This document shows positions 2,675-59,921 of a stretch of 64,000 nt of DNA, piece by piece. A program made the translations under genes and the position numbers. Within the stretch, counting starts at the first letter, position 1, and each line of letters opens with the position of its first letter. The stretch is taken from positions 1 through 64,000 of the forward strand of contig WRKR01000002.1 of NCBI GenBank assembly GCA_009782175.1. Reading direction: 5' to 3'. This DNA comes from Cystobacterineae bacterium. GTDB taxonomy: Bacteria > Myxococcota > Myxococcia > Myxococcales > Myxococcaceae. The notes beneath the pieces are model-generated. The model was not told the DNA's origin and did no database searches. It worked only from the letters and a program-made list of their open reading frames with translations.

Positions 2675-4015
2675 TTATTTGTTGCCCAGGAGGAATTCAG
2701 CGGCATGTTGAGCCCAAAGCTCATTGCCTCGCGCGTTCGGGTGGAAGGACTGCATAGAATTAAACCCTCTTGCGCCAACCAGCTTTATTGCATTGAGTGT
2801 GGAGGGCTCGTCAATGGGGGGCATATATACCAACCGTGGCCCGTTGGGGTTTTCGGCGTTCACCTTGTCAATGGTGCTTTGGATGGTGCTGTTGAGGTTG
2901 TTAACATAGTCCTTCACGGCTGGCTCACGGCTTGCCGGAACGCCGCCAAACTGCTGGGAGGTGTCCGAAAAGGGGTAGCCGCTGACATAAATGGTGGCAT
3001 TGGGGGCCGCTTCCAGCGCGGCCTTATAGGTGGTTTCCAACTTGGGCGCCAAACCTTCTTTAAGCAGCGTGTTGGCTTCCTTCAGGACTTTTTCAAACTT
3101 CGCGTCGCCGCCCGTTATCGTATTTCCGGCCCTCGCCAAATCCCCAAACAGGGCGTCGTTGCCGCCCGCTGTCAACAGCATAACGTCGGCTTTGAGGAGG
3201 GCAGCCTTGTTGTTTTCAAACTGGGTGTTAATGGAGGGCTCACTCTTCGCCCCACGTAGATCAAACCCATCCGTCGTCCCCCCTGTTTCAGCGAAGAAAT
3301 GGCTTCCCATGTTGACATTAATGCGAGCGTCTCCCTCCAAGAGGCGTGCCCATGCTTTGTCGGTACGGCCCGTCTTGTCCGTCTCCACATATGGGTAGCT
3401 GTATTCATTCGGGCTTCCCATATATTTGACGACAGACTCTACCGTAGAGTCATGCTTGCCGGCGCCTATGCCGGCCATATAAGAGTCCCCCAGCGCCGCC
3501 ATCTCCAAAGGAGAAGAGGCAGGCGGTTGTACCACCTTTTGAGTACCCAGCAATTCCCCGTTGGGCCCAGTAAAACTCAGCGTGGCCTCCCGCGGCTCTG
3601 TGCCCGCATTCGCGCGAAACATGACGTTTGCCAAGTCTGGTCCGCTGCCCTCAACCGTACCCGGCGCGTTGCCCACAGCATAGGGTTGAGCCCAAGCTTG
3701 GTCGGAGCTCACCTTCCAAGGCATACCTTCAGGCACATTAACAGAAAGGACGCCAATGCTTGTACCCGCCTGCTTCAGCTGCCCATCCGGCCCAATGCCG
3801 GCTATAGGCGGACCACCGGACATCGGCGCGGCCGACGCGGTGGCTGCCCCCCCCAACCCCATGGCTTGCTTGGCAGGCCCGCTCCCTTCAAAACAATCGA
3901 CGGGCAAAGCTGTGGAGGCAGGCATATTCGCCTGTATGTTGCCGGCGGGCTTCAAAGCTTCAGCTTGGCGAGGCTCCGGCATGGCGAGCGGTGGGGTAGA
4001 TGATGAAATTTTCAT
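2675..4015 (-). CDS. SGNH/GDSL hydrolase with BACON-like domain
   Basis: 446 residues. Residues about 86-163 form a BACON-like beta-sandwich: a MPWKVSSDQAW strand, a V-x-F-R-A-N-A-G-T-E-P-R-E-A-T segment and a closing V-V-Q. Residues about 170-440 are an SGNH hydrolase: block I ALGDSYMAG with nucleophile Ser about 178, block III GGND at 284-287, and block V SFHPNARGN with His about 425. The Asp usually three residues before that His is Gln, as in Ser-His dyad esterases. Likely an esterase or lipase. There is no Sec signal; the first 85 residues are Pro/Ala/Gly-rich and disordered-looking, so location is unclear. ATG 4015 is the only sensible start. It stands alone, converging on the DXS-like gene. 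Confidence 0.75.
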   Translation of the reverse strand: MKISSSTPPLAMPEPRQAEALKPAGNIQANMPASTALPVDCFEGSGPAKQAMGLGGAATASAAPMSGGPPIAGIGPDGQLKQAGTSIGVLSVNVPEGMPWKVSSDQAWAQPYAVGNAPGTVEGSGPDLANVMFRANAGTEPREATLSFTGPNGELLGTQKVVQPPASSPLEMAALGDSYMAGIGAGKHDSTVESVVKYMGSPNEYSYPYVETDKTGRTDKAWARLLEGDARINVNMGSHFFAETGGTTDGFDLRGAKSEPSINTQFENNKAALLKADVMLLTAGGNDALFGDLARAGNTITGGDAKFEKVLKEANTLLKEGLAPKLETTYKAALEAAPNATIYVSGYPFSDTSQQFGGVPASREPAVKDYVNNLNSTIQSTIDKVNAENPNGPRLVYMPPIDEPSTLNAIKLVGARGFNSMQSFHPNARGNELWAQHAAEFLLGNK

Positions 4016-43544: not shown

Positions 43545-44762
43545 TTAAAGCCGTTTAAAAATGAGTGAGGTATTAATTCCGCCGAAGGCGAAGTTGTTGG
43601 ACATCACATATTCGGTTTCTATGGCCCTGCCTTCTCCCGTGAGGTAATCCAACTCTGCGCATTGGGGGTCCACCTCTTGCAGGTTGAGGTTGGGGGCAAA
43701 CCAGCCCTCATTCATCATCTGTATGGTCAACCAGGCCTCAATGGCTCCGCAGGCGCCCAGCGTATGGCCCAAATAACTTTTGAGTGTGCTGACGGGGAGG
43801 GGGCGGCGGAATATGTTTCGCGTAATATGGCTTTCTGCAATATCGCCCGTCCCGGTGGCCGTTCCATGCGTATTTATATAGCCAATGGCCTGAGGGGGGA
43901 GGCGTGCATCTTCCAGGGCGAGGCGGAGTGCGCCCCCCATGGTTTCCGGGTTGGGGTGCGTCACATGGGTGCCATCCGTATTCGTCCCAAAGCCCACCAC
44001 CTCTGCATAAACCTGAGCACCCCTCGCCAGGGCGTGTGTATATTCTTCCAAAATGAGGGTGCCTGCTCCCTCTCCTATAACCAGGCCGTCTCTGTTTTTG
44101 TCATAGGCAGCGGGAGTAGAAGCGGGGGCCTCATTTTTCGTGCTGGTGGCAAAGAGGGTATCAAACACGGCTGCATCTGCTGCGCTTAATTCTTCTGCGC
44201 CGCCGGCAAGCATAATGTCCTGGAGGCCATGGCCTATGGTTTCATAGGCATAGCCAATGGCCATGCTGCCGGAGGTGCAGGCGGTGTTGGTGGGAATCAT
44301 TCTTCCGGTGAGGCCATAAAACACTTCGAGGTTGGTGGCGCAGGTATGGGGCATGGCCTTTATATACGTAGTGGCATTCATGTCCTTCAAGTCGCCGTGG
44401 ACAAGCATGCCATAAAAGTCCATGAGGGGGGGGACGCTGCCCAGGGAGGAGCCATAGGCCACACCGCAGCGGCCATTGCGCAAAAGGGGTGAGTCCACGA
44501 GGCCGGCCATGTGCAGGGCGTTGTTGGTGGCGGTGAGGGAGAGGAGGGCGACGCGGCCCATGCCGCGGATTTTTTTTCGTGGGTATTCCGGGAGGGCGGC
44601 ATCTATAGGGGCGGCCAGCCGGGTATTCATTTTCTCATATTTGTCCCAGGCGTCCATGCGGCGCACACAATTTTTATAGAGGCGCAGCTTGGCCAAAATA
44701 TCTGGCCACGCATTCCCCAGCGCGCTGACGACGCCGCCGCCGCTCACCACCACGCGCCTCAC
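43545..44762 (-). CDS. Beta-ketoacyl-ACP synthase, aryl-polyene (ApeR-like)
   Basis: 405 residues, FabF-like with a complete Cys-His-His triad: NTACTSGSMAIG, INTHGTATGTGD and LGHTLGACGA. The start MRRVVVSGGGVVSALGNAW and the VRRMDAWDKYEKMNTRLAAP region are closer to the synthases of aryl polyene gene clusters than to fabF. It would extend a polyene chain with malonyl units. It is last in a five-gene set where all neighbours overlap; ATG 44762 overlaps the reductase stop. Confidence 0.8.
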   Translation of the reverse strand: MRRVVVSGGGVVSALGNAWPDILAKLRLYKNCVRRMDAWDKYEKMNTRLAAPIDAALPEYPRKKIRGMGRVALLSLTATNNALHMAGLVDSPLLRNGRCGVAYGSSLGSVPPLMDFYGMLVHGDLKDMNATTYIKAMPHTCATNLEVFYGLTGRMIPTNTACTSGSMAIGYAYETIGHGLQDIMLAGGAEELSAADAAVFDTLFATSTKNEAPASTPAAYDKNRDGLVIGEGAGTLILEEYTHALARGAQVYAEVVGFGTNTDGTHVTHPNPETMGGALRLALEDARLPPQAIGYINTHGTATGTGDIAESHITRNIFRRPLPVSTLKSYLGHTLGACGAIEAWLTIQMMNEGWFAPNLNLQEVDPQCAELDYLTGEGRAIETEYVMSNNFAFGGINTSLIFKRL

Positions 44763-45484
44763 AGCAAGCCACCGTCAACGGCAATCACCTGCCGCGTAAT
44801 ATAGGAGGCCGCATCGGAGAGGAGAAACAGCACCAGGGCCGCCACCTCCTGGCTTTTTCCTATTCTCCCCATGGGTATAGAGGGGAGGAGTTTCTCCAGG
44901 GGTGCCTCTTTCACCATTTCCGTATCAATAAGCCCTGGGGCAATGCAATTTACCGTAATAGAGCGGCTTGCCAGCTCCAGGGCGAGGGCTTTGGTTGCGC
45001 CAATAATGCCGGCTTTGGAGGCACTATAATTCACTTGTCCGCGGTTGCCGGCAATTCCGGAAACGGAGGCGAGGCTAATAATTCTGCCCTGTTTTTTTCT
45101 GCAAAGGGGCATAACCAGGGGGTGGAGCACATTATAAAATCCATCCAAGTTGGTATGGAGGACTTTGTCCCATTCCTCTGCGGTGAGGGCCGGAAAGGCA
45201 TTGTCCGCGCAAATGCCCGCATTGCAGACAATGCCCCAAAGGGCGCCCTCTCTTTGGCTATATTCCTCGAGGGTGCTTTGTGTTTCTTTTCTGTTGGCAA
45301 TATCAAAGCGGAGCAGCTCCACGGCTTTGCCTTGTGCTTTTATTTCTTCTTGCAGGGAGAGGGCTGCATTTTCGCTGTGGCAATAGTGGGCAATAACCTT
45401 ATAGTCCGCCGCTGCTGCTGCCAGGGCAATGGCTCTGCCTATGCCCCGGCTTGCTCCCGTAACCAACACACTTCTTCCATTCAT
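44759..45484 (-). CDS. FabG-like ketoreductase, aryl-polyene (ApeQ-like)
   Basis: 241 residues; short-chain reductase with TGASRGIG, CNAGI, catalytic Ser in LASVSG and Tyr-Lys in YSASKAG, and the FabG-type end SYITRQVIAVDGGLL. It should reduce the 3-ketoacyl-ACP made by the flanking synthases. Both ends overlap neighbours by four bases, so translation is coupled. Confidence 0.85.
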   Translation of the reverse strand: MNGRSVLVTGASRGIGRAIALAAAAADYKVIAHYCHSENAALSLQEEIKAQGKAVELLRFDIANRKETQSTLEEYSQREGALWGIVCNAGICADNAFPALTAEEWDKVLHTNLDGFYNVLHPLVMPLCRKKQGRIISLASVSGIAGNRGQVNYSASKAGIIGATKALALELASRSITVNCIAPGLIDTEMVKEAPLEKLLPSIPMGRIGKSQEVAALVLFLLSDAASYITRQVIAVDGGLL

Positions 45485-45930
45485 CTGTTTATCACCGCCG
45501 AAAAATCCGCGGACTCCATAATGGTAAGTTTGGCTGAAACTGCTTTTATCTGGCCTTCAAAAACGCTGCATTGGAAGGAGGAAACATTGTCCACAACGGT
45601 GTCCTCTTCTATTTCAATGCGGACTGTCCCCTGAAGCACAGGCACATGCAGCACCAACTCTGAAACGCTGAGGATGAAGCCGAAGAGGGGTTTTTCGCCT
45701 GCGGCCCGCCTCTTCAGTCCGGAGAGGGCGGAAGTGCTTTGGGCCATCAACTCAAAGCCTGCCCAGGCGGGCAAGCCCTTCAACGCTTCTTTAAAAAAGA
45801 GGCAATCCTCCTCAATGTCATATTCTGCGACCAGGGCGTGTCCTTGGGGCTCCCAGGAAACAATTCTGCTTAAGAGAAACATTTTCCCTTCGTGGGGGAT
45901 TAAGGTTGCCAATTCTTCTTTGTCGATCAT
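45481..45930 (-). CDS. Hotdog-fold 3-hydroxyacyl-ACP dehydratase (ApeP-like)
   Basis: 149 residues from ATG 45930 (overlapping the upstream synthase stop). LIPHEGKMFLLSRI corresponds to the FabZ/ApeP catalytic His block and GLPAWAGFELMAQSTSALSG to the second helix block with its acidic residue. It would dehydrate 3-hydroxyacyl-ACP to the trans-enoyl form, leaving double bonds unreduced to build a polyene. Confidence 0.78.
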   Translation of the reverse strand: MIDKEELATLIPHEGKMFLLSRIVSWEPQGHALVAEYDIEEDCLFFKEALKGLPAWAGFELMAQSTSALSGLKRRAAGEKPLFGFILSVSELVLHVPVLQGTVRIEIEEDTVVDNVSSFQCSVFEGQIKAVSAKLTIMESADFSAVINR

Positions 45931-47129
45931 AGCTCTTCCGCCCTGCGCATGAGGAGGCTTAAGTTGCAACCCCCAAAGGCAAAGGAGTTATTCATACAAT
46001 AACGGGCTTTCCTGAAGTGGGTTTTTTCTGCAGGCAACCTCTCCTGGGCTTTCACCAAGTGCAAAGCGGGGAGTGTTTCATCCACAACACCATCCCAGCA
46101 ATGGGGGGGCAACGTGCCGGTGTGCAGCACACCCCAGCACAGGGCCAACTCCAAGGCCCCCGCCGCCCCCAAAGTATGCCCTATAACAGCTTTGGTGGAG
46201 CTGGCCGGTGGTTGGCCCTTGCCGAAAACAGCATGCATGGCTTTTGCTTCTGCGCTGTCATTGAGGCGTGTCCCCGTCCCGTGGAGGTTAACATAGGCCA
46301 CCTCAGTGGGGCTTATTCCCGCGTGGTGGAGGGCAGCCTGCATGGCGGCGGCGGCCCCTATGCCTTCGGGGTGGGGAGCCGTCATGTGGAAGGCGTCGGC
46401 GCTCTCGCCATAGCCTGCCAGCACCATGGCCTCCTCCTCCAATTTTTCTCTGGAGAGCACAAAAAAGGCTGCCCCTTCTCCCAGGTTAATGCCCTTGCGG
46501 TTTTTGCTAAAGGGGTTGCTATGTTCTGCAGAAAGCGCCTCCAATGCCCAAAAGCCCAGGAGAGAAGCCTCGGAGGCAATGTCTACCCCGCCGGCAACAA
46601 CAGCATCACACAGGCCAAAAGCAATAAGCTCTGCCCCTCGGGCAATGGCTGAAGCGCTGGAGGCGCAGGCTGTGGCGAGGGAAAAAACCGGCCCCTCAAG
46701 GCCCAAAAACCGGGCGGCATATTCAGCGGGCCTGGCGGCGCTTTGCAAGGAGAGTTGATAGCCTTGAGGCCATGCGCCCCTTTCAAAAAAAGACCGATGT
46801 GCCGGGAGGGAGTCCTCCGTCCCATTGTCACAGGAGCCCAGGCACAGGCCCACCCTCTGAGGGCCAAAGCGCTGCAAGGCTTTTTCCGCCGTAGGGCGCA
46901 GTTGTTGCAGCGCGGTGGTACAGAGGAAAAGCAGCTTGGTGGCGGCCTCTGGAGGTGGCGTTGGGGCGCGGCCGACGAGGAAGCTGTGGGTTTTGGCGCC
47001 GACATGGAGGGTGGTGGGGAGAATGCCGCTTTGGTCGCCGCGCACAGCGGCCTCAAAAAAAGGCTCAAAGGCCTGTCCGGCGCAGCAAATGAGTCCGGGT
47101 TTTGAGAGGAAAATGGGCTGAAAACTCAC
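45927..47129 (-). CDS. Beta-ketoacyl-ACP synthase, aryl-polyene (ApeO-like)
   Basis: 400 residues from GTG 47129, which has GGGGAG seven bases upstream and overlaps the DUF3261 stop (GTGA). Triad: ATACASSASAIARG, NLHGTGTRLND and [13 protein letters not shown], all intact. The N-terminal part is divergent from FabF and lacks the usual long opening, like ApeO-type synthases. It probably works with the ApeR-like enzyme, the reductase and the dehydratase on an ACP-bound chain. Confidence 0.78.
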   Translation of the reverse strand: MSFQPIFLSKPGLICCAGQAFEPFFEAAVRGDQSGILPTTLHVGAKTHSFLVGRAPTPPPEAATKLLFLCTTALQQLRPTAEKALQRFGPQRVGLCLGSCDNGTEDSLPAHRSFFERGAWPQGYQLSLQSAARPAEYAARFLGLEGPVFSLATACASSASAIARGAELIAFGLCDAVVAGGVDIASEASLLGFWALEALSAEHSNPFSKNRKGINLGEGAAFFVLSREKLEEEAMVLAGYGESADAFHMTAPHPEGIGAAAAMQAALHHAGISPTEVAYVNLHGTGTRLNDSAEAKAMHAVFGKGQPPASSTKAVIGHTLGAAGALELALCWGVLHTGTLPPHCWDGVVDETLPALHLVKAQERLPAEKTHFRKARYCMNNSFAFGGCNLSLLMRRAEEL

Positions 47130-47818
47130 AAAAACGCTCCCCAAATAACATAGGAATAGCCGCGCAAATGGTTGATATATTCAACCCTGTCGGCTTTTTT
47201 TTCAATTTCAATAATGGGTTTATTCCCCTCATAGAGGAGGCGTTTTTCCACACCTGAGTCCTGCGTTGTGGTGTGTAGCCTCAGCTTCCCCAGAGAGAGG
47301 CGCAGGGCCTCGGGTGTATAAAAACACAGTTGGAAGTCCGCCACCACATATTCAGGTTTTATGTGTTTGGGGAAATGAGCGGAAGAGAAGCTTAAGTTTT
47401 TCCCATCATACACCAGAGTACCCAGGCTGTTGCCCATGTCATTGAGCAACTCTATGTGGAGGCTTGTTTTATCCGCCTTTACCCAGGCACTCATATGGAA
47501 AGGGGCCTCTCCCTGGGTACCACTAATGCGTTGAGGCATATCCAGGTTTTTTTCAATATATTGAGGTGGCAACAAAACAAAGAAGGAGCTGTTGCTCAAG
47601 GGAACAGGCGCATAACTATTTTCAGTTGCTATTTTTTTTGCGCAAGAGCCCCCCAGAAAAGGGAGAAGCACCCCCCAAAGGAACAACACATAGCGAGCTA
47701 CATAGCGAGGCAGATGGCGAGGCAGATGGCGAAGCACATGGCGAGGCAGATGGCGAGGCGGCATGGGTGTGGGTTTTAGCAAGTTTTGCTCTGCATGGCG
47801 AGGCGGGGTTTTTTCCAT
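47126..47818 (-). CDS. DUF3261 lipoprotein of the aryl-polyene-like operon
   Basis: Up to 230 residues. The mature region starts after lipobox-like LGGSC (about residue 59) and shows the DUF3261 plan: MPQRISGTQG, LGTLVYDGKNL, YVVADFQLCFYTPEALRLSLG and IIEIEKKADRVEYIN. DUF3261 lipoproteins precede the ApeO synthase in aryl polyene clusters and may help deliver the product to the outer membrane. The leader is odd: PRHLPRHVLRHLPRHLPRYV arises from a 12-base tandem repeat, so the real start is uncertain; an ATG at 47764 is the alternative. It is first in the operon. Confidence 0.7.
   Translation of the reverse strand: MEKTPPRHAEQNLLKPTPMPPRHLPRHVLRHLPRHLPRYVARYVLFLWGVLLPFLGGSCAKKIATENSYAPVPLSNSSFFVLLPPQYIEKNLDMPQRISGTQGEAPFHMSAWVKADKTSLHIELLNDMGNSLGTLVYDGKNLSFSSAHFPKHIKPEYVVADFQLCFYTPEALRLSLGKLRLHTTTQDSGVEKRLLYEGNKPIIEIEKKADRVEYINHLRGYSYVIWGAFL
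47696..47764. repeat. 12-base tandem repeat in the DUF3261 leader
   Basis: About five copies of a GATGGCGAGGCA unit, read on the minus strand as Arg-His/Tyr-Leu-Pro repeats. It sits before or within the signal peptide region of the lipoprotein gene. Confidence 0.6.
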
Positions 47819-48179: not shown

Positions 48180-50105
48180 ATGAGAACAAATAACAATTTA
48201 AATATCCGTCTTTTATCCACAGCAGGGGCATTGGCCTGCATGTTGGGGTGGGCCTGCACTGCAGAAGTGGGTTTTTTCAACAGCTTCGTGGATGGGGGCT
48301 GTGTTACGGGAAGCCCTCAGGCTTGTCCTCAAGGCCAAAGCTGCATAGGCCCCATGGGCTCCCCTATGGGGGTTTTGGGCCTCTGTTTGTCTGAGTGCCT
48401 CGTGGGAGAGCCCAATGCCTGCCCTGAAAATACCCATTGCCTGCCCATAACAGGGGAAAAGGAGTTGGGGACTTGCCAAAGCAGCTGCAACCCCAATGCC
48501 CCCAATGCCTGTCCCAAGGGGCAAGCCTGCACAGAAATAGAGGGCACGCCCACCTGTCAACCTCTCCCTGAGTGTTATGTGGGCGACAACATGTGCCCTG
48601 CGGGACAAAGCTGCGTGGGCAACCCTGGCGCTCCCGCAGGCAGCCCGGGCCGTTGCGAGGCTGAGGCTGAGGCCGAGTGCCGCATAGGTGAAAACAGTTG
48701 TGCAGAAGGCCATGTCTGCAAGGGAGAAGAAGGTGCAAAAACCGGCGAGCCAGGCTCATGCCAACCCGAATGCCGCGTCGGCAGCAACAATGGGTGCCCT
48801 GACGGCCATGCCTGCATAGGCACTGACAATCCACAATACCTGGAGCCGGGAAGATGTTACCTCATCTGCCATGGCGACAACAATGAGTGCCCGACAGGCC
48901 AAGTCTGCATAGGCGCGCAAGCGGGCACTTCGGGCACATGCCAAATGCCACCCCAGTGCGTTGTGGGCGACAACAGCCTGTGTGAGTTGTGGCAAAACTG
49001 CATAGGCATTTCCAGCAACCAAGTGGGCGCCCCAGGCCGCTGCCAGGGAGAGCCCGAATGCCGCGTGGGCGACAACCATTGCCCTGCATGGCAAAGCTGC
49101 ACAGGCTATGAAAGCAATGCCAACAACGCCCCGGGCCGCTGCCAGGGAGAGCCCGAATGCCGTGTGGGCGACAACCATTGCCCCCTATGGCAAAGCTGCA
49201 TAGGCTATGAAAGCAATGCCAACAACGCCCCGGGCCGCTGCCAGGGAGAGCCTCAATGCCGCGTGGGCAACAACAATTGCCCTGTCAACACCCAGTGCAT
49301 AGGCTATGAAAGCAATGCCAACGGCGCCCCAGGCACCTGCCAAGCCGCTCCTGCTCCCAGAGATATTACCCGGCTTTATATGTTTTTTGGCCACAACTCG
49401 GTGGGGGGAGAAATAGTCAGCGGCTTGTCCAACCAAGTGCAGGGGTTGAGAATACTCTCTTATACGCCGACCTCTATAACCAACACGGCGGGAAACCATT
49501 TCGGCTCACCCACCCGCCAACCCGGACTGCTGAATGTAACCACCTATGGCTTGTATAACACCTATAACCAAGCCATCCAAGAGGTGGACGCTTTCACGGC
49601 ACATGTGCGCGGCATCATCAATGGACGCGGCAACATTCCCGGACAACCCCTGGACATTGTCTTCATGAAGTTTTGCTTCCTGGCTTTCTATAATATGAAT
49701 TCAGGACAGGAAACCTCGCTCTTTAATTATTATGCCGAGCAGATGGACATCCTCCAAAGAGACTTCCCCTCGCTGATTGTGGTGCACCTCACCCAAACCA
49801 CCCGGCCTTGCGCGGAGACTCAAAGCTATCTCCACGCGGCCAATATACGCTCTATGAATTATAGGCGACTCATGCTCAACCGCTATGCCAGCGGCGGCCG
49901 GGTTTTCGACTTGACGCTTGCCGAGGCCACCGGCGCCAACGGGAACGTCAACCATTGCACCTACCGCGATGCCTCCGGAGAACTCGTCCTGGGGCTGCGC
50001 TCAGAATATGCACCCAGCTCCACCAGCACCGATGGACACCTCAACACCACAGGACGCAATACCATAGCTCGGGAATTGGCCAACTTCCTCGCCAACGTCC
50101 GTTAG
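48180..50105 (+). CDS. Cysteine-repeat lipoprotein with C-terminal SGNH-like domain
   Basis: 641 residues from ATG 48180. The N-terminal hydrophobic helix ends in a non-canonical lipobox MLGWAC (Cys about 26). Residues about 45-390 are some ten repeats of about 33 residues of the form ECRVGDN-x-CP-x4-CIG-x(7)-GAPGRCQ, each with four Cys, disulfide-knotted by appearance; the last three come from nearly identical 99-base DNA units. Residues about 398-641 form one domain: MFFGHNSVGGEIVSGL, DIVFMKFCFLAF, DFPSLIVVHLTQTTRP and STDGHLNTTGRN. The Ser in HNSVG and the D-x-H in TDGHLN suggest an SGNH-type hydrolase without the GDSL motif. Function unknown; probably surface-exposed. The following terminator isolates it. 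Confidence 0.8.
   Translation: MRTNNNLNIRLLSTAGALACMLGWACTAEVGFFNSFVDGGCVTGSPQACPQGQSCIGPMGSPMGVLGLCLSECLVGEPNACPENTHCLPITGEKELGTCQSSCNPNAPNACPKGQACTEIEGTPTCQPLPECYVGDNMCPAGQSCVGNPGAPAGSPGRCEAEAEAECRIGENSCAEGHVCKGEEGAKTGEPGSCQPECRVGSNNGCPDGHACIGTDNPQYLEPGRCYLICHGDNNECPTGQVCIGAQAGTSGTCQMPPQCVVGDNSLCELWQNCIGISSNQVGAPGRCQGEPECRVGDNHCPAWQSCTGYESNANNAPGRCQGEPECRVGDNHCPLWQSCIGYESNANNAPGRCQGEPQCRVGNNNCPVNTQCIGYESNANGAPGTCQAAPAPRDITRLYMFFGHNSVGGEIVSGLSNQVQGLRILSYTPTSITNTAGNHFGSPTRQPGLLNVTTYGLYNTYNQAIQEVDAFTAHVRGIINGRGNIPGQPLDIVFMKFCFLAFYNMNSGQETSLFNYYAEQMDILQRDFPSLIVVHLTQTTRPCAETQSYLHAANIRSMNYRRLMLNRYASGGRVFDLTLAEATGANGNVNHCTYRDASGELVLGLRSEYAPSSTSTDGHLNTTGRNTIARELANFLANVR
49048..49344. repeat. Three 99-base coding tandem repeats
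   Basis: Units start at 49048, 49147 and 49246; each encodes a 33-residue cysteine repeat. Units one and two differ at only a few bases, unit three is a little more divergent. Confidence 0.85.
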
Positions 50106-50134
50106 CGCGCCTCAGCACCGCCTTAACCCACCTC

Positions 50135-50173
50135 GCATGCCGGGAAGCTTTCTCTTCCCGGCGTGCTTTTTTT
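50135..50173 (+). terminator. Rho-independent terminator
   Basis: Thirteen-base stem GCATGCCGGGAAG/CTTCCCGGCGTGC with a six-base loop and seven T, 30 bases after the lipoprotein stop. Confidence 0.92.
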
Positions 50174-50771
50174 AATGCTCACGCGCATACCCCGCTTTGC
50201 TTTAGCTTGCAGACAAAACCCCCACCCTCTCATGGGGGCTGCTGTCCATAATAAAATGCCAGAGCGGCTTTATGTTGAAGTGAGCCTTCAAAGACATAGC
50301 GCGTGAGGCTCGCTATGGAACCGATAATGGGCCTTATTTGCGAATTGTAGGCAAAAGCTGTTTTGCAGCGCTATTTTTTGCCCAAATACACATGCCTGCC
50401 CACACTCAGCTTCTCTTTTTCCTTCACAAGCCCGCCTAAAAGAAAAATTTGCAACCCTTTTCATGCCTTAAACCTTATTCCTCACAAACACAGACAGCAG
50501 CTTTTTTCAAAAATGTGCTCTGTTGCGCAGAAATGTATTCAGAGGCACAGAAATATCTCCCTGAAAACAACTATATGCACAATGTAGTCCTGGGCTGTAA
50601 CAAAAGTGTGGCCTATGCGAAAACGCGAATGGAGCGTGAGCTCCAAAGGAGTTGCCTTACGAAAACAACCTCTATTTCCGCTCTATTTTTTTTGCATACA
50701 GGGCGCCTACACCTATGAGCATGTGAAATTCTCTCCTTCAGCCTCACAGTCAGTCTCATGAAGCCTCACAG

Positions 50772-50868
50772 TTGGGTTTAGCCGTTGAGCTTTGCAGTTG
50801 AACTTTGCCGTTGAGCTTTGCAATTGAACTTTGCAGTTGAACTTTGCAGTTGAACTTTGCAGTTGAGC
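50772..50868. repeat. 13-base tandem repeat array
   Basis: About seven copies of TTGAACTTTGCAG (variants TTGAGCTTTGCAG and TTGAACTTTGCCG), in phase from 50785, with a degenerate first unit at 50772. It is noncoding and lies about 190 bases upstream of the second cysteine-repeat gene. Confidence 0.8.
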
Positions 50869-51055
50869 CTTCATTGCATTCGCCCTTCACGCATATGGGC
50901 CGGAGGTTTTTGCTTCCACTTAAAATGCCTCCTCAAAAAAACTTAAGCTCCCGCCCCACTTGAGAGCTCTAACTCTTTAATATTCTTTTAAATTAACCTC
51001 ATTTGTTTGCTTAAAACTTCCTATTTTTATGTCCAAAACAAGAAGAAGATAGATT

Positions 51056-53032
51056 ATGAATATACAACTCAGTTGTTTTAAATGTGCAAAACTTGCATTC
51101 ACCCTTGCCTTGGGGGTTGGGTTGGCTTGCTCAGGGGAGGCTGAGCGACAAAACTCCAATTCCACAGGCCTTAAAACCAAGCTGTCCGCAGCCCACCCCG
51201 ATGTCCCCTGGACACAACTGGGCTCCACCCCTGCGGAGCTGAGTGCGCTCAGCCAGAAAAAGGTTTTCCTTGCGCACAATACCGTTGGCTCCAACCTTGT
51301 CAGCGGACTTAGGCGCGTTGCCCCTGGGCTTTCTATACGCTCGGGCAGCTCGGCCTCCTCGTTGAGTGCCCCCACCCTCCTGGAGCATTTAATAAGCTAT
51401 GAGGCCAGGCCCCTGGAAAAAATAGCGGCCTTCGAAAACCTGGTAAACAACCTGGGGCCCCTCCTGGATATTGCCCTCATAAAGCTGAGCCACATTGACT
51501 TTGATAAATTTGTAGGCATCCGCGTAGAGGACATAACCACCGCCTATGCGGCCACCATAAGCAGGCTGCAAGCCCGCTTCCCCCATGTGGTTTTTGCGCA
51601 TGTTACGGCACCGCTTTATACGCGCGCCGCCTCCTGGGACAATGCCTCAAGAGAGCAATTTAATGCCTGGCTGCGCACCACCTATAAAGGCCACGTTTTT
51701 GACTTGGCCGCCCTGGAAGCCATGCGCGCCGATGGGAGTTTGGCGCTCGCCCTGGACGGGCGCAGCCCCGCGCTGGCCGACGAGTGGGCCCAGGATACCC
51801 ACCAACTCAACACGGAAGGCGCCAACCGCATTGCCACCTCCCTCATCGGCTTTTTGGCTTCAGACTTTTCCTGCGACAACACCCCGGAGCCCGAGTGCCG
51901 CATAGGGGACAACAGCTGCCCCGCCAACCATATATGCATAGGCTTGGACAGCAATGTACAGGGTGCACCGGGGGCTTGTCAGCTTGTGGAGCCGGAGCCC
52001 GAGTGCCGCATAGGGGACAACAGCTGCCCCGCCAACCATATATGCATAGGCTTGGACAGCAATGCGCAGGGTGCGCCAGGGGCTTGTCAGCTTGTGGAGC
52101 CGGAGCCCGAGTGCCGCATAGGGGATAACAGCTGCCCCGCCAACCATATATGCATAGGCTTGGACAGCAATGCGCAGGGTGCACCGGGGGCTTGTCAGCT
52201 TGTGGAGCCGGAGCCCGAGTGCCGCATAGGGGACAACAGCTGCCCCGCCAACCATATATGCATAGGGTTGGACAGCAATGCGCAGGGTGCGCCGGGGACA
52301 TGTGTGCGAGAGCAAGTTGACACAGGGGAGCCTTGGACAAGCGTTGAGTTTTCTCCAGCTGACTTAAATGCTTTGCGGCTTCGCAAAGTTTTCTTCGGGC
52401 ACAACTCTGTGGGCCAAAACACCATTGACGGGATGAAACGTGTGGCTTCGACCCTGAGCATACGCTCGGCCAACAGCAGCAATTTAAATGCTGTTATTGG
52501 GCAACTTGGAACGGCTCCGGCGCTCGTTGAATATCTGATCGACAACAACGGCAACCCCCTTGCCAAAATTAACGCCTTTGAAAACGCCATGAAAACCGTT
52601 GGCAACCGTGTGGATATTGCTTTTATGAAGCTGTGCTATGCGGACTTTCCCACCAATATAAACAACCTCATTGCCGCCTATGAGGCAGCCATGAACAGGT
52701 TGCAAAGAGATTTTCCAAGCGTGCTTTTTATACACATTACTGCGCCGCTTTATGACTGGAATGCCTCCTGGGACAATGCCTCAAGAGAGCAATTTAACAC
52801 CTGGCTGCGCACCACCTATAAAGGCCGCGTTTTTGACTTGGCAACCATTGAGTCCATTCGCCCCAACGGCACCATCGCCTTGTCACGGGACAACAAAACC
52901 ATTGCCTTGGCCAATGAGTGGACTTCTGACGGCGGACACCTCAATGAGAGCGGCGCAAACCGTATGGGAAGCGGGCTTATAGGCTTCTTGGCTTCTCAAC
53001 CCCTCAAAACAGACAACATCCTTCTCTTCTAA
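51056..53032 (+). CDS. Lipoprotein with two SGNH-like domains around a cysteine-repeat array
   Basis: 658 residues. Lipoprotein signal with LGVGLAC (Cys about 25). Domain 1 (about 67-272) and domain 2 (about 440-650) are homologous: KKVFLAHNTVGSN versus RKVFFGHNSVGQN, both with DIA-x-(I/M)-KL, SRLQARFPHVVFAHVTAPLY versus NRLQRDFPSVLFIHITAPLY, and ASWDNASREQFN in both. Domain 2 keeps Ser in HNSVG and the SDGGHLN end; domain 1 has Thr for Ser and QDTHQLN, with His displaced, so it may be inactive. Between them are four 36-residue repeats, each with four Cys (PECRIGDNSCP ... CIGLDSNAQGAPGACQ). It is clearly related to the 48180 gene with the domain order changed. Confidence 0.82.
   Translation: MNIQLSCFKCAKLAFTLALGVGLACSGEAERQNSNSTGLKTKLSAAHPDVPWTQLGSTPAELSALSQKKVFLAHNTVGSNLVSGLRRVAPGLSIRSGSSASSLSAPTLLEHLISYEARPLEKIAAFENLVNNLGPLLDIALIKLSHIDFDKFVGIRVEDITTAYAATISRLQARFPHVVFAHVTAPLYTRAASWDNASREQFNAWLRTTYKGHVFDLAALEAMRADGSLALALDGRSPALADEWAQDTHQLNTEGANRIATSLIGFLASDFSCDNTPEPECRIGDNSCPANHICIGLDSNVQGAPGACQLVEPEPECRIGDNSCPANHICIGLDSNAQGAPGACQLVEPEPECRIGDNSCPANHICIGLDSNAQGAPGACQLVEPEPECRIGDNSCPANHICIGLDSNAQGAPGTCVREQVDTGEPWTSVEFSPADLNALRLRKVFFGHNSVGQNTIDGMKRVASTLSIRSANSSNLNAVIGQLGTAPALVEYLIDNNGNPLAKINAFENAMKTVGNRVDIAFMKLCYADFPTNINNLIAAYEAAMNRLQRDFPSVLFIHITAPLYDWNASWDNASREQFNTWLRTTYKGRVFDLATIESIRPNGTIALSRDNKTIALANEWTSDGGHLNESGANRMGSGLIGFLASQPLKTDNILLF
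51887..52318. repeat. Four 108-base coding tandem repeats
   Basis: Units begin at 51887, 51995, 52103 and 52211 and are almost identical in DNA, far more so than protein constraint would require, which points to recent duplication or gene conversion. Each encodes a 36-residue four-cysteine repeat. Confidence 0.9.
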
Positions 53033-55160: not shown

Positions 55161-56552
55161 TTAATAGGCATTTTTGGACAAAAAACCTCCGCACAGGGTT
55201 TTGAGCAAAATTTTCATGTCCAAGCCGGGGGACCAATTTTCTATATAATAGAGGTCAGCCGCAATGCGCTCCTCAATGGAAGTCTGCCCCCTTAGGCCTT
55301 GAATTTGGGCCAAACCCGTCATGCCTGACTTCATCATATGCCTCAAATGGTAGCGCGGAATACGCTTTTTAAACTCCTCAATAAACACCGGGCGCTCGGG
55401 CCTGGGCCCGACCAAACTCATTTCTCCCCACAACACATTCCAAAGCTGCGGCAACTCATCCAGGGAAAACTTGCGCAGCACAGCTCCCAGGCCTGTACAA
55501 CGCTTGTCCTGAGGGGAGGCCATTTGCGCCCCCACCACCTCTGCGTCTGTGCGCATGGTCCTATATTTCAGCATCCAAAACAGGCGCCCGTCCATACCCA
55601 TGCGCTGCTGGCGATAGAGCACCGGGCCCTTGCTGCCCAGCTTCACCAGCAAAGCAATCAGCAACATCAGCGGAGAGAGCAACACCAGAAAAACGAAGGC
55701 GCCCAGCACGTCAACGCTGCGCTTCACAATGCGGCTCCAGGCATCCACCGGGGCGCTTTGCAACTCTATCATCGGCAAACCGCCAAACTCCTCCAAGCCC
55801 CCTTTGAGCGTCATATATTCCCCCAAATCAGGAACAATTTTGACATCCACCGTACGCAAGGCCAGCTGCCTCATCAGCTCAGCCAGCAAGGACTGCTTCG
55901 CAAAGGGCAAGGCCACAATAACATGGTCCACGGGGTGCTCATCCAATATGCGGCCTATGTCTTCTATGCCGCCCAAAATGGGCCCAACCTCCGGCGGGTG
56001 CTCCAACTCTTCAGGCTTGTGCGTCAAATAACCCTTCAGCTCCAAACCCAACTCCCGGTGAGAGAGCAGCGCGTTAACTACTTTTTGGCTTAAAGCACCC
56101 GTGCCCACCATCAGCACATAGTGGATGTTATAGCCGCGGCGACGCACCTTGTTGAGGAGCGAGCGAAACAAAATGCGCTGCGTCGACAACAACACAAAAG
56201 CCAGCCCCACAAACAACAGCAAAGTGACGCGAGAATAGCGCTCCCGGAAAAAATAAGTCAGCGTCACCAACAGCACCGTGGCCACCACGGTTGCCCTTAA
56301 AACCTCCAAAACCTCCCCCCAATGCGTACGCGCGCGGTTGGTGCGATAAAGCCGCATTTGCCGAAATACCACAGGGAAAACCAACAACACCACGCCCAGA
56401 GCCCATAAGCTGTCCTCCCGGGCCGGAATAACCTCATGCGGCAAGCCCGAATGAAACCTCAACCCATAGGCCAAAGCAAAAGCACACAGGAGTGCAAGCT
56501 CATCCATGAGCAGCTTGATGGCGTTATAAAACCGTTGAAAACGTCTAAACAC
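55161..56552 (-). CDS. Undecaprenyl-phosphate sugar phosphotransferase (exopolysaccharide)
   Basis: 463 residues, polyisoprenyl-phosphate hexose-1-phosphate transferase of the WcaJ/WbaP type. Four N-terminal membrane helices, a Rossmann-like CoA-binding middle domain (YNIHYVLMVGTGALSQ, VDHVIVALP), a re-entrant helix (KRSVDVLGAFVFLVLLSP) and the catalytic cytosolic end with KYRTMRTDAE, FSLDELPQLWNVLWGEMSLVGPRPE and GLAQIQGLRG. It transfers a sugar-1-phosphate to undecaprenyl phosphate to start polysaccharide repeat units. No glycosyltransferases flank it here, so it is a solitary initiating enzyme. Confidence 0.93.
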   Translation of the reverse strand: MFRRFQRFYNAIKLLMDELALLCAFALAYGLRFHSGLPHEVIPAREDSLWALGVVLLVFPVVFRQMRLYRTNRARTHWGEVLEVLRATVVATVLLVTLTYFFRERYSRVTLLLFVGLAFVLLSTQRILFRSLLNKVRRRGYNIHYVLMVGTGALSQKVVNALLSHRELGLELKGYLTHKPEELEHPPEVGPILGGIEDIGRILDEHPVDHVIVALPFAKQSLLAELMRQLALRTVDVKIVPDLGEYMTLKGGLEEFGGLPMIELQSAPVDAWSRIVKRSVDVLGAFVFLVLLSPLMLLIALLVKLGSKGPVLYRQQRMGMDGRLFWMLKYRTMRTDAEVVGAQMASPQDKRCTGLGAVLRKFSLDELPQLWNVLWGEMSLVGPRPERPVFIEEFKKRIPRYHLRHMMKSGMTGLAQIQGLRGQTSIEERIAADLYYIENWSPGLDMKILLKTLCGGFLSKNAY

Positions 56553-57224: not shown

Positions 57225-58583
57225 TTAAGGCAGTTGTGTGGGGTAGCGGCCTGAAACACAAGCATCACAAAAACCATTGGCGGGTTGCATGGCCTCCTTA
57301 AAGCCTGTGGGGGACAAAAAAGCCAAGGTATCCGCACCAATATGGGTACATACCTCTTCAAGGCTATGGGAGGCGGAAATGAGTTCAGCGCGGGAGGGAG
57401 TGTCTATGCCATAGCAGCAGGGCCACTCTGTAGGTGGGCTGGCAATGCGCATGTGTATTTCGCCAACGCCCGCGGAGCGCAGCAAGGAGACAATTTTTTT
57501 GGAGGTGGTGCCGCGGATAATGGAGTCGTCCACTACAACCACGCGCTTTGCATTTAACACGGAGCGCACAGCCGAAAGCTTCAGCTTCACACCAAAATTG
57601 CGAATGCTTTGCTGAGGCTCAATAAAAGTCCTCCCCACATAGTGGCTGCGGATGAGTCCCTGCTCATAGGGTATGCGTGCAGCCTGCGCATAGCCAATGG
57701 CTGCCGCAACCCCCGAGTCTGGAACTGGAATAACCACGTCCGCTGAAACAGGGTGCACTCTGGAGAGGGCCGCCCCCATGCGCTTTCGCGCCTCATGCAC
57801 GGAGCAACCAAACACCTCAGAGTCCAAGCGCGCAAAATAAATATGCTCAAATGCACAACAGGCCCGCTTGGCTTTGGCAAAGGGGAAGTGGCTTTCCAAG
57901 TGCCCTCCCTGGAGGACGCATATTTCTCCTGGCTCTATTTCTCGGACAAAGTCAGCCTCAATCAAATCCAAGCCCGTGGTTTCAGAGGACACCACCCAAA
58001 TGCCGTCACGCTTGCCCAATACCAAGGGGCGTATGCCATATATATCCCTCGTCGCTATAAGCTTGCCCTCAGCCAAAAGCACCATGGCATAGCCTCCCCG
58101 GAGGTGCCCCAATGCCTCTATGAGAGAAGCCTCTACTGCAGGCGCCTTCGCATGGGCCACCAAATGCATAACCACCTCCGCATCCGTCTCGGACTGGAAT
58201 ACGGCCCCCTTCTCCTCCAGTTGGCAGCGTACCTCCTCATAGTTGACAAAGGCCCCGTCCATGGCCACCCCCAAGGGCCCCCTCGCATAGCTTACACATA
58301 GGGGCTGCGCATTTTGCAAAGCATGCTTCTCCCGCTTCGGGTAGCGCACGTGCCCTATGGTTAAACCTCCTGCCGCCCCCGAGGGGCTTCCATTTAAATA
58401 TTGAAGGGCTTTGTCATCAAATACGTCCACCACCAAACCCCGCTTCACCACCTCGCGTATATGCCCCTCATCCCATAACACCATTCCAGAGGCCTGCTGC
58501 CCGCGGTGCTGCAAGGCATGCAAACCCAAATAGGTGAGGTTGGCTGCTTCTCTATGTCCGGCAACTCCAAAAATTCCACACAT
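57225..58583 (-). CDS. purF: Amidophosphoribosyltransferase
   Basis: 452 residues. Starts MCGIFGVAG, with Cys2 as the glutaminase nucleophile, followed by LQHRGQQASG and NGSPSGAAGG; the phosphoribosyltransferase part has VVVVDDSIIRGTTSK. Cys residues in KRACCAF, TEWPCCYGID and FCDAC match the iron-sulphur cluster ligands of the Bacillus-type enzyme. It catalyses the first committed step of purine synthesis. It is divergent from the ceramidase-like gene with only 54 bases between. Confidence 0.96.
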   Translation of the reverse strand: MCGIFGVAGHREAANLTYLGLHALQHRGQQASGMVLWDEGHIREVVKRGLVVDVFDDKALQYLNGSPSGAAGGLTIGHVRYPKREKHALQNAQPLCVSYARGPLGVAMDGAFVNYEEVRCQLEEKGAVFQSETDAEVVMHLVAHAKAPAVEASLIEALGHLRGGYAMVLLAEGKLIATRDIYGIRPLVLGKRDGIWVVSSETTGLDLIEADFVREIEPGEICVLQGGHLESHFPFAKAKRACCAFEHIYFARLDSEVFGCSVHEARKRMGAALSRVHPVSADVVIPVPDSGVAAAIGYAQAARIPYEQGLIRSHYVGRTFIEPQQSIRNFGVKLKLSAVRSVLNAKRVVVVDDSIIRGTTSKKIVSLLRSAGVGEIHMRIASPPTEWPCCYGIDTPSRAELISASHSLEEVCTHIGADTLAFLSPTGFKEAMQPANGFCDACVSGRYPTQLP

Positions 58584-58637
58584 GGCACCTGCTTTAGTCT
58601 CTTTGGAAAAAACCTGCTAGGAGATGAGAACATTCCC

Positions 58638-59921
58638 ATGCACCTTTCTTCAAAAAAAAGCCGCCTCAAATACCACCCCCTCGGCATGAGTTTTCTCTTG
58701 CTTTTGGGCGGCCTCTATGCCTTCGCTTCCTTCCCTCTGTGCAAAAATACACATGCCCCCCCGGCCCTCCTCTCCTCTCAATATACGCAAGCACCTGTGC
58801 AGGTGGGCGCGGCCAAAGCTGAAATTTCCATTCCCCATTGGCCTGTTGCCATGGCCGGCTATGGCCCCTTGCGCCCCAAGGCCACAGAGCAAAGCCTGCC
58901 CCTCTATGCCCGCGCCATTGTCCTTCGCTCCTCCGGCTTTGAGTTGAGCCTCCTCTCTTTGGAAACCCTCCTCGTCCCCCCTGCCCTCACTCAAAAACTC
59001 CAACAACAGCTGGGGGAGGTTGTGGTGGTGCCTACGCATACGCATAGCTCCCTCGGGGGGTTTGACGCGCGCTGGCAAGCACAAATAAGCACCATGGGGC
59101 GCTTTGAGGAGGCTGTGTATGAGGCGGTGCTTGAGGCCTGCCTCCAGGCTGTTGCACAGGCCCGGCAAAACCTGCAGGAGGCACACTTCGCCTGGGAGCA
59201 AAGCCAGCTTGAGGCGTGGACGCAGCCGCGCTCCGGCACGCAGGTAGAAAGCCGCCTCTTGAGGCTGCGCTGGCAGAGCAAGGCCGGCCCCCTCGCCCAG
59301 GTGCTGGTGCTTGCAGCCCACCCCACACTCGCCCCCAAGAGTGAGAAACAACTCCACCCGGATTTTCCGGGGGAGTTGGCCTTGCTTGAGGAAGGTGCGG
59401 GCCATGGGGTTACGTTGGTGTGGCCCTCGGCTGTGGCCAATGCGCGCATTAGCCTCCCCCATGCAACACCCCAAAGCTTTGCGCAAAAACTCCACGCGCA
59501 TGTGCAAGCTTGGCCTCCTCCTCCCGTGGAAAACTCAACCCCCCTTCAACTCTCCTATGCGCGCATTCGCTTTGCGCTGCCGGCGGTGGACACCTCCAGG
59601 CTTGTGCCCAAACTCCTGAGCAGGCCTGCAAACAACCTCTTGTGCCAAGGCATTCCCCCCGAGGCAGAGTTTTCTGTTTTGGCCCTGGGGGCCTTGCAGC
59701 TTGTGGCGGTGCCTTTTGAGGTTGGCGCTGAGGCGGCACGGGCTTTGGAGGAGGCCGGGCTGGGCCATGCTTTGTCCATGGCCAACAACTACCTCGGCTA
59801 TATGGAAACACCAGGCAATGTGGAGCAAAGCCTGGGCGAGTCCTCCCTCCAATATTTTGAAAAAACCTTGCTGGAAAAAATAACGCAGGCCGCCCAACTC
59901 AGGCCCTGGGCCGGGCCTTAG
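58638..59921 (+). CDS. Neutral ceramidase-like exported protein
   Basis: 427 residues from ATG 58638. One N-terminal membrane helix or signal anchor (GMSFLLLLGGLYAFASFPLC), then a domain opening with VQVGAAKAEISIPHWPVAMAGYG, typical of the neutral/alkaline non-lysosomal ceramidase N-terminal domain, and VVVPTHTHSSLGG, matching its metal-binding and nucleophile block (usually THTHSGPGG, here S-S-L). It lacks the C-terminal domain of real ceramidases (about 650 residues). Substrate uncertain, possibly lipid or peptidoglycan amide bonds. Its last 23 bases overlap the converging DnaJ/TPR gene. Confidence 0.65.
   Translation: MHLSSKKSRLKYHPLGMSFLLLLGGLYAFASFPLCKNTHAPPALLSSQYTQAPVQVGAAKAEISIPHWPVAMAGYGPLRPKATEQSLPLYARAIVLRSSGFELSLLSLETLLVPPALTQKLQQQLGEVVVVPTHTHSSLGGFDARWQAQISTMGRFEEAVYEAVLEACLQAVAQARQNLQEAHFAWEQSQLEAWTQPRSGTQVESRLLRLRWQSKAGPLAQVLVLAAHPTLAPKSEKQLHPDFPGELALLEEGAGHGVTLVWPSAVANARISLPHATPQSFAQKLHAHVQAWPPPPVENSTPLQLSYARIRFALPAVDTSRLVPKLLSRPANNLLCQGIPPEAEFSVLALGALQLVAVPFEVGAEAARALEEAGLGHALSMANNYLGYMETPGNVEQSLGESSLQYFEKTLLEKITQAAQLRPWAGP

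Follow-up and report, generated by a model that had tools for sequence, protein, structure and literature searches.

Two putative myxobacterial surface lipoproteins carrying predicted SGNH-fold domains on cysteine-rich repeats

A 64,000-nucleotide stretch of the genome of Cystobacterineae bacterium, a termite-gut myxobacterium (assembly GCA_009782175.1, contig WRKR01000002.1, positions 1 to 64,000 of the forward strand; hereafter the window) carries two adjacent genes, A and B, whose products join four-cysteine repeats to a motif-marked domain. An earlier note on this DNA had described the pair, and both open reading frames (ORFs) and all the quoted motifs are present: FFGHNSVG; VFMKFC or DIAFMKLC; DFPSLIVVHLT or DFPSVLFIHIT; and TDGHLN or DGGHLN. 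The order of parts differs between the genes, as the note had also said, with repeats followed by a domain in A and a domain on either side of the repeats in B. Cysteine spacing and the paralogy of the two gene B domains, B1 and B2 (54% identity, E=3e-65), agree on this layout, whose parts are as follows.

48180..50105, + strand: gene A, putative lipoprotein, repeats-domain (ORF, 641 residues)
48300..49340, + strand: gene A array of 11 four-cysteine repeats (residues 41-387; cysteine spacing, tandem DNA copies)
49365..50102, + strand: gene A predicted SGNH-fold domain (155-bit family profile match; AlphaFold model with SGNH enzymes as top PDB hits)
49398-49400 and 50037-50039, + strand: putative Ser and His codons of gene A (codons checked)
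50135..50166, + strand: intrinsic terminator after gene A (13-pair stem with 9 GC pairs, then T7)
51056..53032, + strand: gene B, putative lipoprotein, domain-repeats-domain (ORF, 658 residues)
51221..51871, + strand: gene B first SGNH-like domain, B1 (198-bit family profile match)
51281 and 51803: Thr and Gln codons of B1, replacing Ser and His (codons checked, residue table)
51896..52303, + strand: gene B array of 4 four-cysteine repeats (residues 281-416; cysteine spacing, tandem DNA, Lustrin_cystein)
52337..53005, + strand: gene B second predicted SGNH-fold domain, B2 (231-bit family profile match; AlphaFold model, PDB fold hits, conservation)
52406-52408, 52634-52636, 52928-52930 and 52937-52939, + strand: Ser, Cys, Asp and His codons of B2

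Both products begin like lipoproteins. Gene B has a hydrophobic N-terminus ending in a lipobox-like VGLAC, and the hydrophobic stretch of gene A runs to LGWAC, a non-canonical lipobox with Trp at position -2, outside the usual pattern. With a strong intrinsic terminator between them (50135-50166), A and B are probably separate transcription units. A second species of the genus (genome G001, locus L116) has the same architectures, one of the A type together with a B-like domain-repeat-domain protein. The gap between genes A and B also holds a 13-bp direct repeat, GTTGAACTTTGCA, in 6.4 copies (50784-50866).

Structural modelling assigns both modelled domains, A and B2, to the SGNH class. The AlphaFold model of B2, built with 77 sequences, has a predicted local distance difference test (pLDDT) score of 96.3 and a predicted template modelling (pTM) score of 0.92, and a separate model of the gene A domain reaches 89.4 and 0.88. 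All PDB matches of the B2 model at E ≤ 0.001 are SGNH/GDSL-type proteins, namely a platelet-activating factor (PAF) acetylhydrolase-like protein (1.1e-6), PatB, sialate O-acetylesterase and PAF-AH, with OatA just behind. SGNH enzymes also head the PDB matches of the gene A model (best E 2.0e-6), where some designed scaffolds matched too. Pfam's PF13472 profile (Lipase_GDSL_2) is matched at E ≤ 0.01 by 30 of 77 relatives, all of them weak hits (best 7.6e-6). Compared profile to profile with 26 canonical GDSL domains taken from related genomes, the family scores P=94% and E=2e-8, and the same alignment puts DGGHLN on the block V motif DGxHPs. The models and the profile comparison are independent of the motif order from which the earlier note had argued for an SGNH-like domain, and with these results in agreement the domains almost certainly adopt the predicted SGNH three-layer alpha/beta/alpha fold.

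The family has no entry in Pfam or NCBIfam, and the window domains lie below Pfam detection. PF13472, whose gathering cut-off is 32.9 bits, matches neither window protein at E ≤ 1 nor the B2 domain at E ≤ 0.1. NCBIfam holds no relevant match for the domain, a sequence search of the PDB returned nothing significant, and literature searches on the motif or the gene cluster found nothing relevant. As far as these sources reach, the suggestion of an undescribed family is borne out.

Scanning one genome per species turned up 168 relatives, and 79 loci were kept. The family is spread over a dozen or so phyla: the kept loci include Myxococcota, Actinomycetota, Cyanobacteriota, Chloroflexota, Planctomycetota, Thermodesulfobacteriota, Pseudomonadota, Bacteroidota, Spirochaetota, Acidobacteriota, Elusimicrobiota and others, plus one archaeal metagenome-assembled genome (MAG). 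Most relatives are stand-alone proteins of about 280 residues, and 60 of 80 have a signal-like N-terminus by a crude test. Phage and plasmid collections and viral contigs yielded no relatives. Closer to home, 19 of 60 related genomes carry the family. The window's own genome (2.7 Mb in 65 contigs) has eight domain matches, three in the window and five on contig C43. Two other species of the genus are MAGs from the guts of the higher termites Embiratermes and Cornitermes (PMC7024585). In the domain tree, the SGNH-like domain of a Burkholderiales MAG, Pmx449_bin24 (L040), groups with termite-gut myxobacteria and not with other Pseudomonadota, a placement that suggests horizontal transfer.

Conservation was counted over 108 domains; residues follow B2 numbering, in which residue 1 is at base 52337. 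Ser24, which follows strand 18-22 in the B2 model, is Ser in 101 of 105 domains, and His201 is His in 104 of 107. The block V DxxH is a feature of the family, with Asp198 being Asp in 98 of 107. The position directly before Ser24 is Gln in 84 and Asn in 15 of 105 domains (99 together). Block III reads K-[FL]-C-[YF]-x-D, in which Cys100 is conserved in 103 of 108 domains. Further conserved polar residues are H22, N28, N71, K77, K98, C100, D103, T135, N147 and R150. The Ser of H-[QN]-S-V-G holds the predicted block I position and the His of DGGHLN that of block V, and Ser24 is likely the nucleophile. The gene A domain, on a long and fast-evolving branch, keeps both Ser and His.

Three copies have lost this pair. 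B1 reads HNTVG...DTHQLN, with Thr in place of Ser, Gln in place of His and Ser in place of Cys100, and two domains of the G001 counterpart protein have Ala/Leu and Thr/Gln at the Ser and His positions with the same Cys change. Ser and His are thus lost together in all three. Because B1 and the two G001 domains form one clade, sister to B2, the loss may be a single event. With both residues replaced, B1 is probably catalytically dead.

The repeats of A and B follow the pattern C-x6/7-C-x5-C-x8-13-C. They are tandem in the DNA itself, as 99-bp copies at 49028-49342 in gene A and as a 108-bp array with 96% matches at 51884-52297 in gene B. Those of gene B match Lustrin_cystein (PF14625, E=3.6e-7), the sole Pfam match above cut-off in either protein. 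The earlier note had called the repeats knottin-like. A knottin, or inhibitor cystine knot, needs at least six cysteines and three knotted disulphides per unit. Since each repeat has only four cysteines, no three-disulphide knot is possible, and a knottin identity was dropped. The genus has like arrays in further large proteins that resemble lipoproteins, and 0 of 33 genomes searched elsewhere in the order have one. The repeats are best described as a putative genus-wide stalk or display module.

The note had also read the shuffled order of parts as modular exchange between A and B, a proposal rejected on the tree, where a branch of 1.7 changes per site sets the A and B domains apart. The domains are distant, each architecture is kept from one species to the next, and many further proteins of the genus have the repeats fused to them. 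Duplication, with separate fusion to the genus-wide repeat module, would be the simpler account of both architectures. At least six more large lipoprotein-like proteins of the genus have similar cysteine-rich repeats near the N-terminus (L159, L160, L161, L162, L163, L164 and L165). Several of them share a C-terminal region after the repeats that ends near NCNTSS, and L165 has RCC1-like repeats by eye.

Gene context was sampled within five genes of 72 relatives with flanks and of 20 ordinary GDSL control loci from the same order. At least two of an asparagine-synthase-like (AsnB-like) amidotransferase, an adenosine monophosphate (AMP)-ligase and a NadE-like enzyme occur in 27 of the 72 loci and in 0 of the 20 controls (Fisher p=0.0005, ignoring relatedness). 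Other linked genes include hexapeptide transferases (23 loci), carrier proteins (7) and exosortases (5), and glycosyltransferases, polysaccharide exporters and sugar transferases are further neighbours. No MBOAT/DltB partner appears among the 25 most frequent neighbour families, of 87 matched, so that a rare one could escape. On contig C43 of the window's own genome, one strand carries in succession four single-domain SGNH paralogues, two hexapeptide transferases, a carrier-like protein, the amidotransferase, the ligase, a NadE-like enzyme and a gene A paralogue. The amidotransferase/ligase/NadE-like trio also adjoins gene B's last domain in both sister species, G001 and G002 (L037, L038). The nearest named neighbours in the window are, upstream, a keto-acyl-synthase/DUF3261 cluster and, at 55161-56552, a sugar transferase.

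In Porphyromonas, an asparagine-synthase-type amidotransferase produces a sugar uronamide, and exosortase loci contain relatives (PMC7468200). The amidotransferases of all three termite-gut species (L009:9540-11522, L037:3962-6019 and L038:3953-5917) start with MASIAG, where MCGI is seen in nearly every other relative whose start is intact. Having lost the glutaminase cysteine, the termite-gut enzymes may use free ammonia.

Fold and gene context together make it slightly better than even that the domain acts on the cell's own polysaccharide, without telling an esterase from a transferase. On balance, A and B are probably surface lipoproteins that hold SGNH-fold esterase or acyltransferase domains on a cysteine-rich stalk and act on the cell's own exopolysaccharide. 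Ser24 would serve as nucleophile and His201, with Asp198 where it is kept, as base, while Gln or Asn at position 23 would line the oxyanion hole, as the Gln beside Ser does in SASA esterases. The substrate would be an acyl ester on the exopolysaccharide. Inside the cell, the carrier protein, AMP-ligase, asparagine-synthase-like and NadE-like amide-forming enzymes and hexapeptide transferase would make or attach the substituent, which the SGNH protein would take off or move outside. In gene B, B2 would be the active domain, and B1 would serve for binding or as a spacer.

Several observations weigh against this reading. Foldseek TM-scores are moderate (0.42-0.57). The block III Asn of GxND is gone, position 102 being V, I, A, L, M, T or Y and never Asn in the 108 domains, and no block II Gly could be assigned; a G-x-N-x-x-P-x-x-K block lies after strand 63-67. 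The gene A domain is without Asp103 and without Asp at -3 of the His, having Asp at -2 instead. The block I register is ambiguous by one residue: in the profile alignment the GDS Ser falls over position 23 and not over Ser24, though the margin is too slim to rely on. The earlier suggestion that the serine sits in HNSVG in place of GDS is plausible and the residue near-invariant, with this ambiguity of register. As to context, the relatives are not independent, 33 of 72 are without any core neighbour, and A and B themselves are not beside the amidotransferase/ligase cluster in the window, so that their link to polysaccharide rests on paralogues and sister species.

Known SGNH groups help to place these features. 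The family resembles the GDSL-SGNH family PF13472 (clan CL0264) in fold, block order and block V DxxH. Unlike it, the new family has H-[QN]-S-V-G instead of GDS, has no block III Asn and adds a near-invariant K-x-C-Y-x-D motif. The SASA, or CE6, sialate and xylan acetylesterases (PF03629) likewise lack an Asn in block III, and a Gln next to their catalytic Ser makes an inverted oxyanion hole (PMC9487903). Because the SASA block III HQGE motif is absent here, and 0 of 77 members match PF03629 at E ≤ 0.01, this likeness is taken as mechanistic analogy, not membership. PatB (DUF459), OatA and the AlgX/AlgJ O-acetyltransferases are also extracytoplasmic SGNH enzymes serving polysaccharide or wall biosynthesis, and two of them, PatB and OatA, were matched in the fold search. 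In contrast to their systems, the most frequent neighbour families of the new family include no MBOAT or AT3 partner, and the permuted block order of AlgX is not seen. XrtA/PEP-CTERM exopolysaccharide loci share a related amidotransferase and AMP-ligase beside the SGNH gene. The two enzymes resemble TIGR03108 and TIGR03098, yet score under both curated cut-offs, and no exosortase is seen in the examined stretch of contig C43.

A more specific proposal, which we regard as doubtful, makes the family the extracytoplasmic transferase of an undescribed carrier-protein-dependent system that adds an amidated acyl or aminoacyl group to exopolysaccharide. The AMP-ligase and carrier protein would load the group, the AsnB-like and NadE-like enzymes would amidate it, and the hexapeptide transferase and SGNH protein would place it. 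Dlt D-alanylation offers a parallel, in that an AMP-ligase, a carrier protein and the extracytoplasmic SGNH protein DltD occur together; it differs in that no DltB-type membrane acyltransferase is seen near the new family, the amide-forming enzymes are extra and there is no match to a DltD profile.

The domains might instead be digestive carbohydrate esterases, such as acetylxylan esterases, acting on plant fibre in the termite gut. The termite-gut origin of the sister species, the acetylxylan and sialate esterases among the fold matches and the expansion of the family in the genus, with eight copies in so small a genome, fit this idea. Relatives are common, however, in groundwater, marine, soil and cyanobacterial genomes, and they are linked to genes of polysaccharide biosynthesis, not degradation, as is the genus cluster, which leaves a digestive role improbable. 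A similarly low probability attaches to non-catalytic carbohydrate-binding or adhesin modules of SGNH fold on a stalk. The OSK domain is a non-enzymatic SGNH fold (PMC9487903), B1 and both G001 counterparts are kept intact despite the loss of Ser and His, the fast-evolving gene A lacks two conserved Asp, and the repeats are common to other large surface proteins. Against this, the Ser and His of B2, A and almost all relatives are near-invariant and come with a conserved polar set typical of an active site. Quite improbable, finally, is an enzyme of another kind on an SGNH-like alpha/beta/alpha scaffold with Cys100 or another conserved residue as nucleophile: Cys100 is well conserved and becomes Ser in degenerate copies, and the profile alignment favours position 23, but the block V His and Gln/Asn-Ser pair match the SASA arrangement, and L025 retains Ser and His though its position 100 is Ser.

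If the esterase or acyltransferase reading holds, a widespread SGNH family gains a fold, a predicted Ser-His pair and a SASA-like Gln/Asn replacing the block III Asn, and the conserved gene neighbourhood names candidate partners. It would be one more enzyme editing bacterial exopolysaccharide, with bearing on biofilms and myxobacterial predation, and the window's genome, a small gut genome, would show these enzymes multiplied and mounted on stalks.

Other members and neighbours deserve mention. On contig C198 of G001, a 1272-residue protein (L117:2747-6565) has one SGNH-like domain and a weak Phage Mu Gp48-like start (E=0.0011), and directly follows a 924-residue ORF that is baseplate-like by eye and has no Pfam match; it may be a tail-like particle protein that includes an SGNH domain. 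In the window, a conventional GDSL/SGNH protein lies at 2675-4015 on the minus strand (PF13472, E=1.7e-9, above cut-off). At 43545-47818, also on the minus strand, two keto-acyl synthases, a ketoreductase, a small ORF without matches and a DUF3261 protein follow one another in what resembles an aryl-polyene-type cluster. At 58506-59921 on the plus strand, a neutral ceramidase match (PF04734, E=5.6e-14) covers the N-terminal part only.

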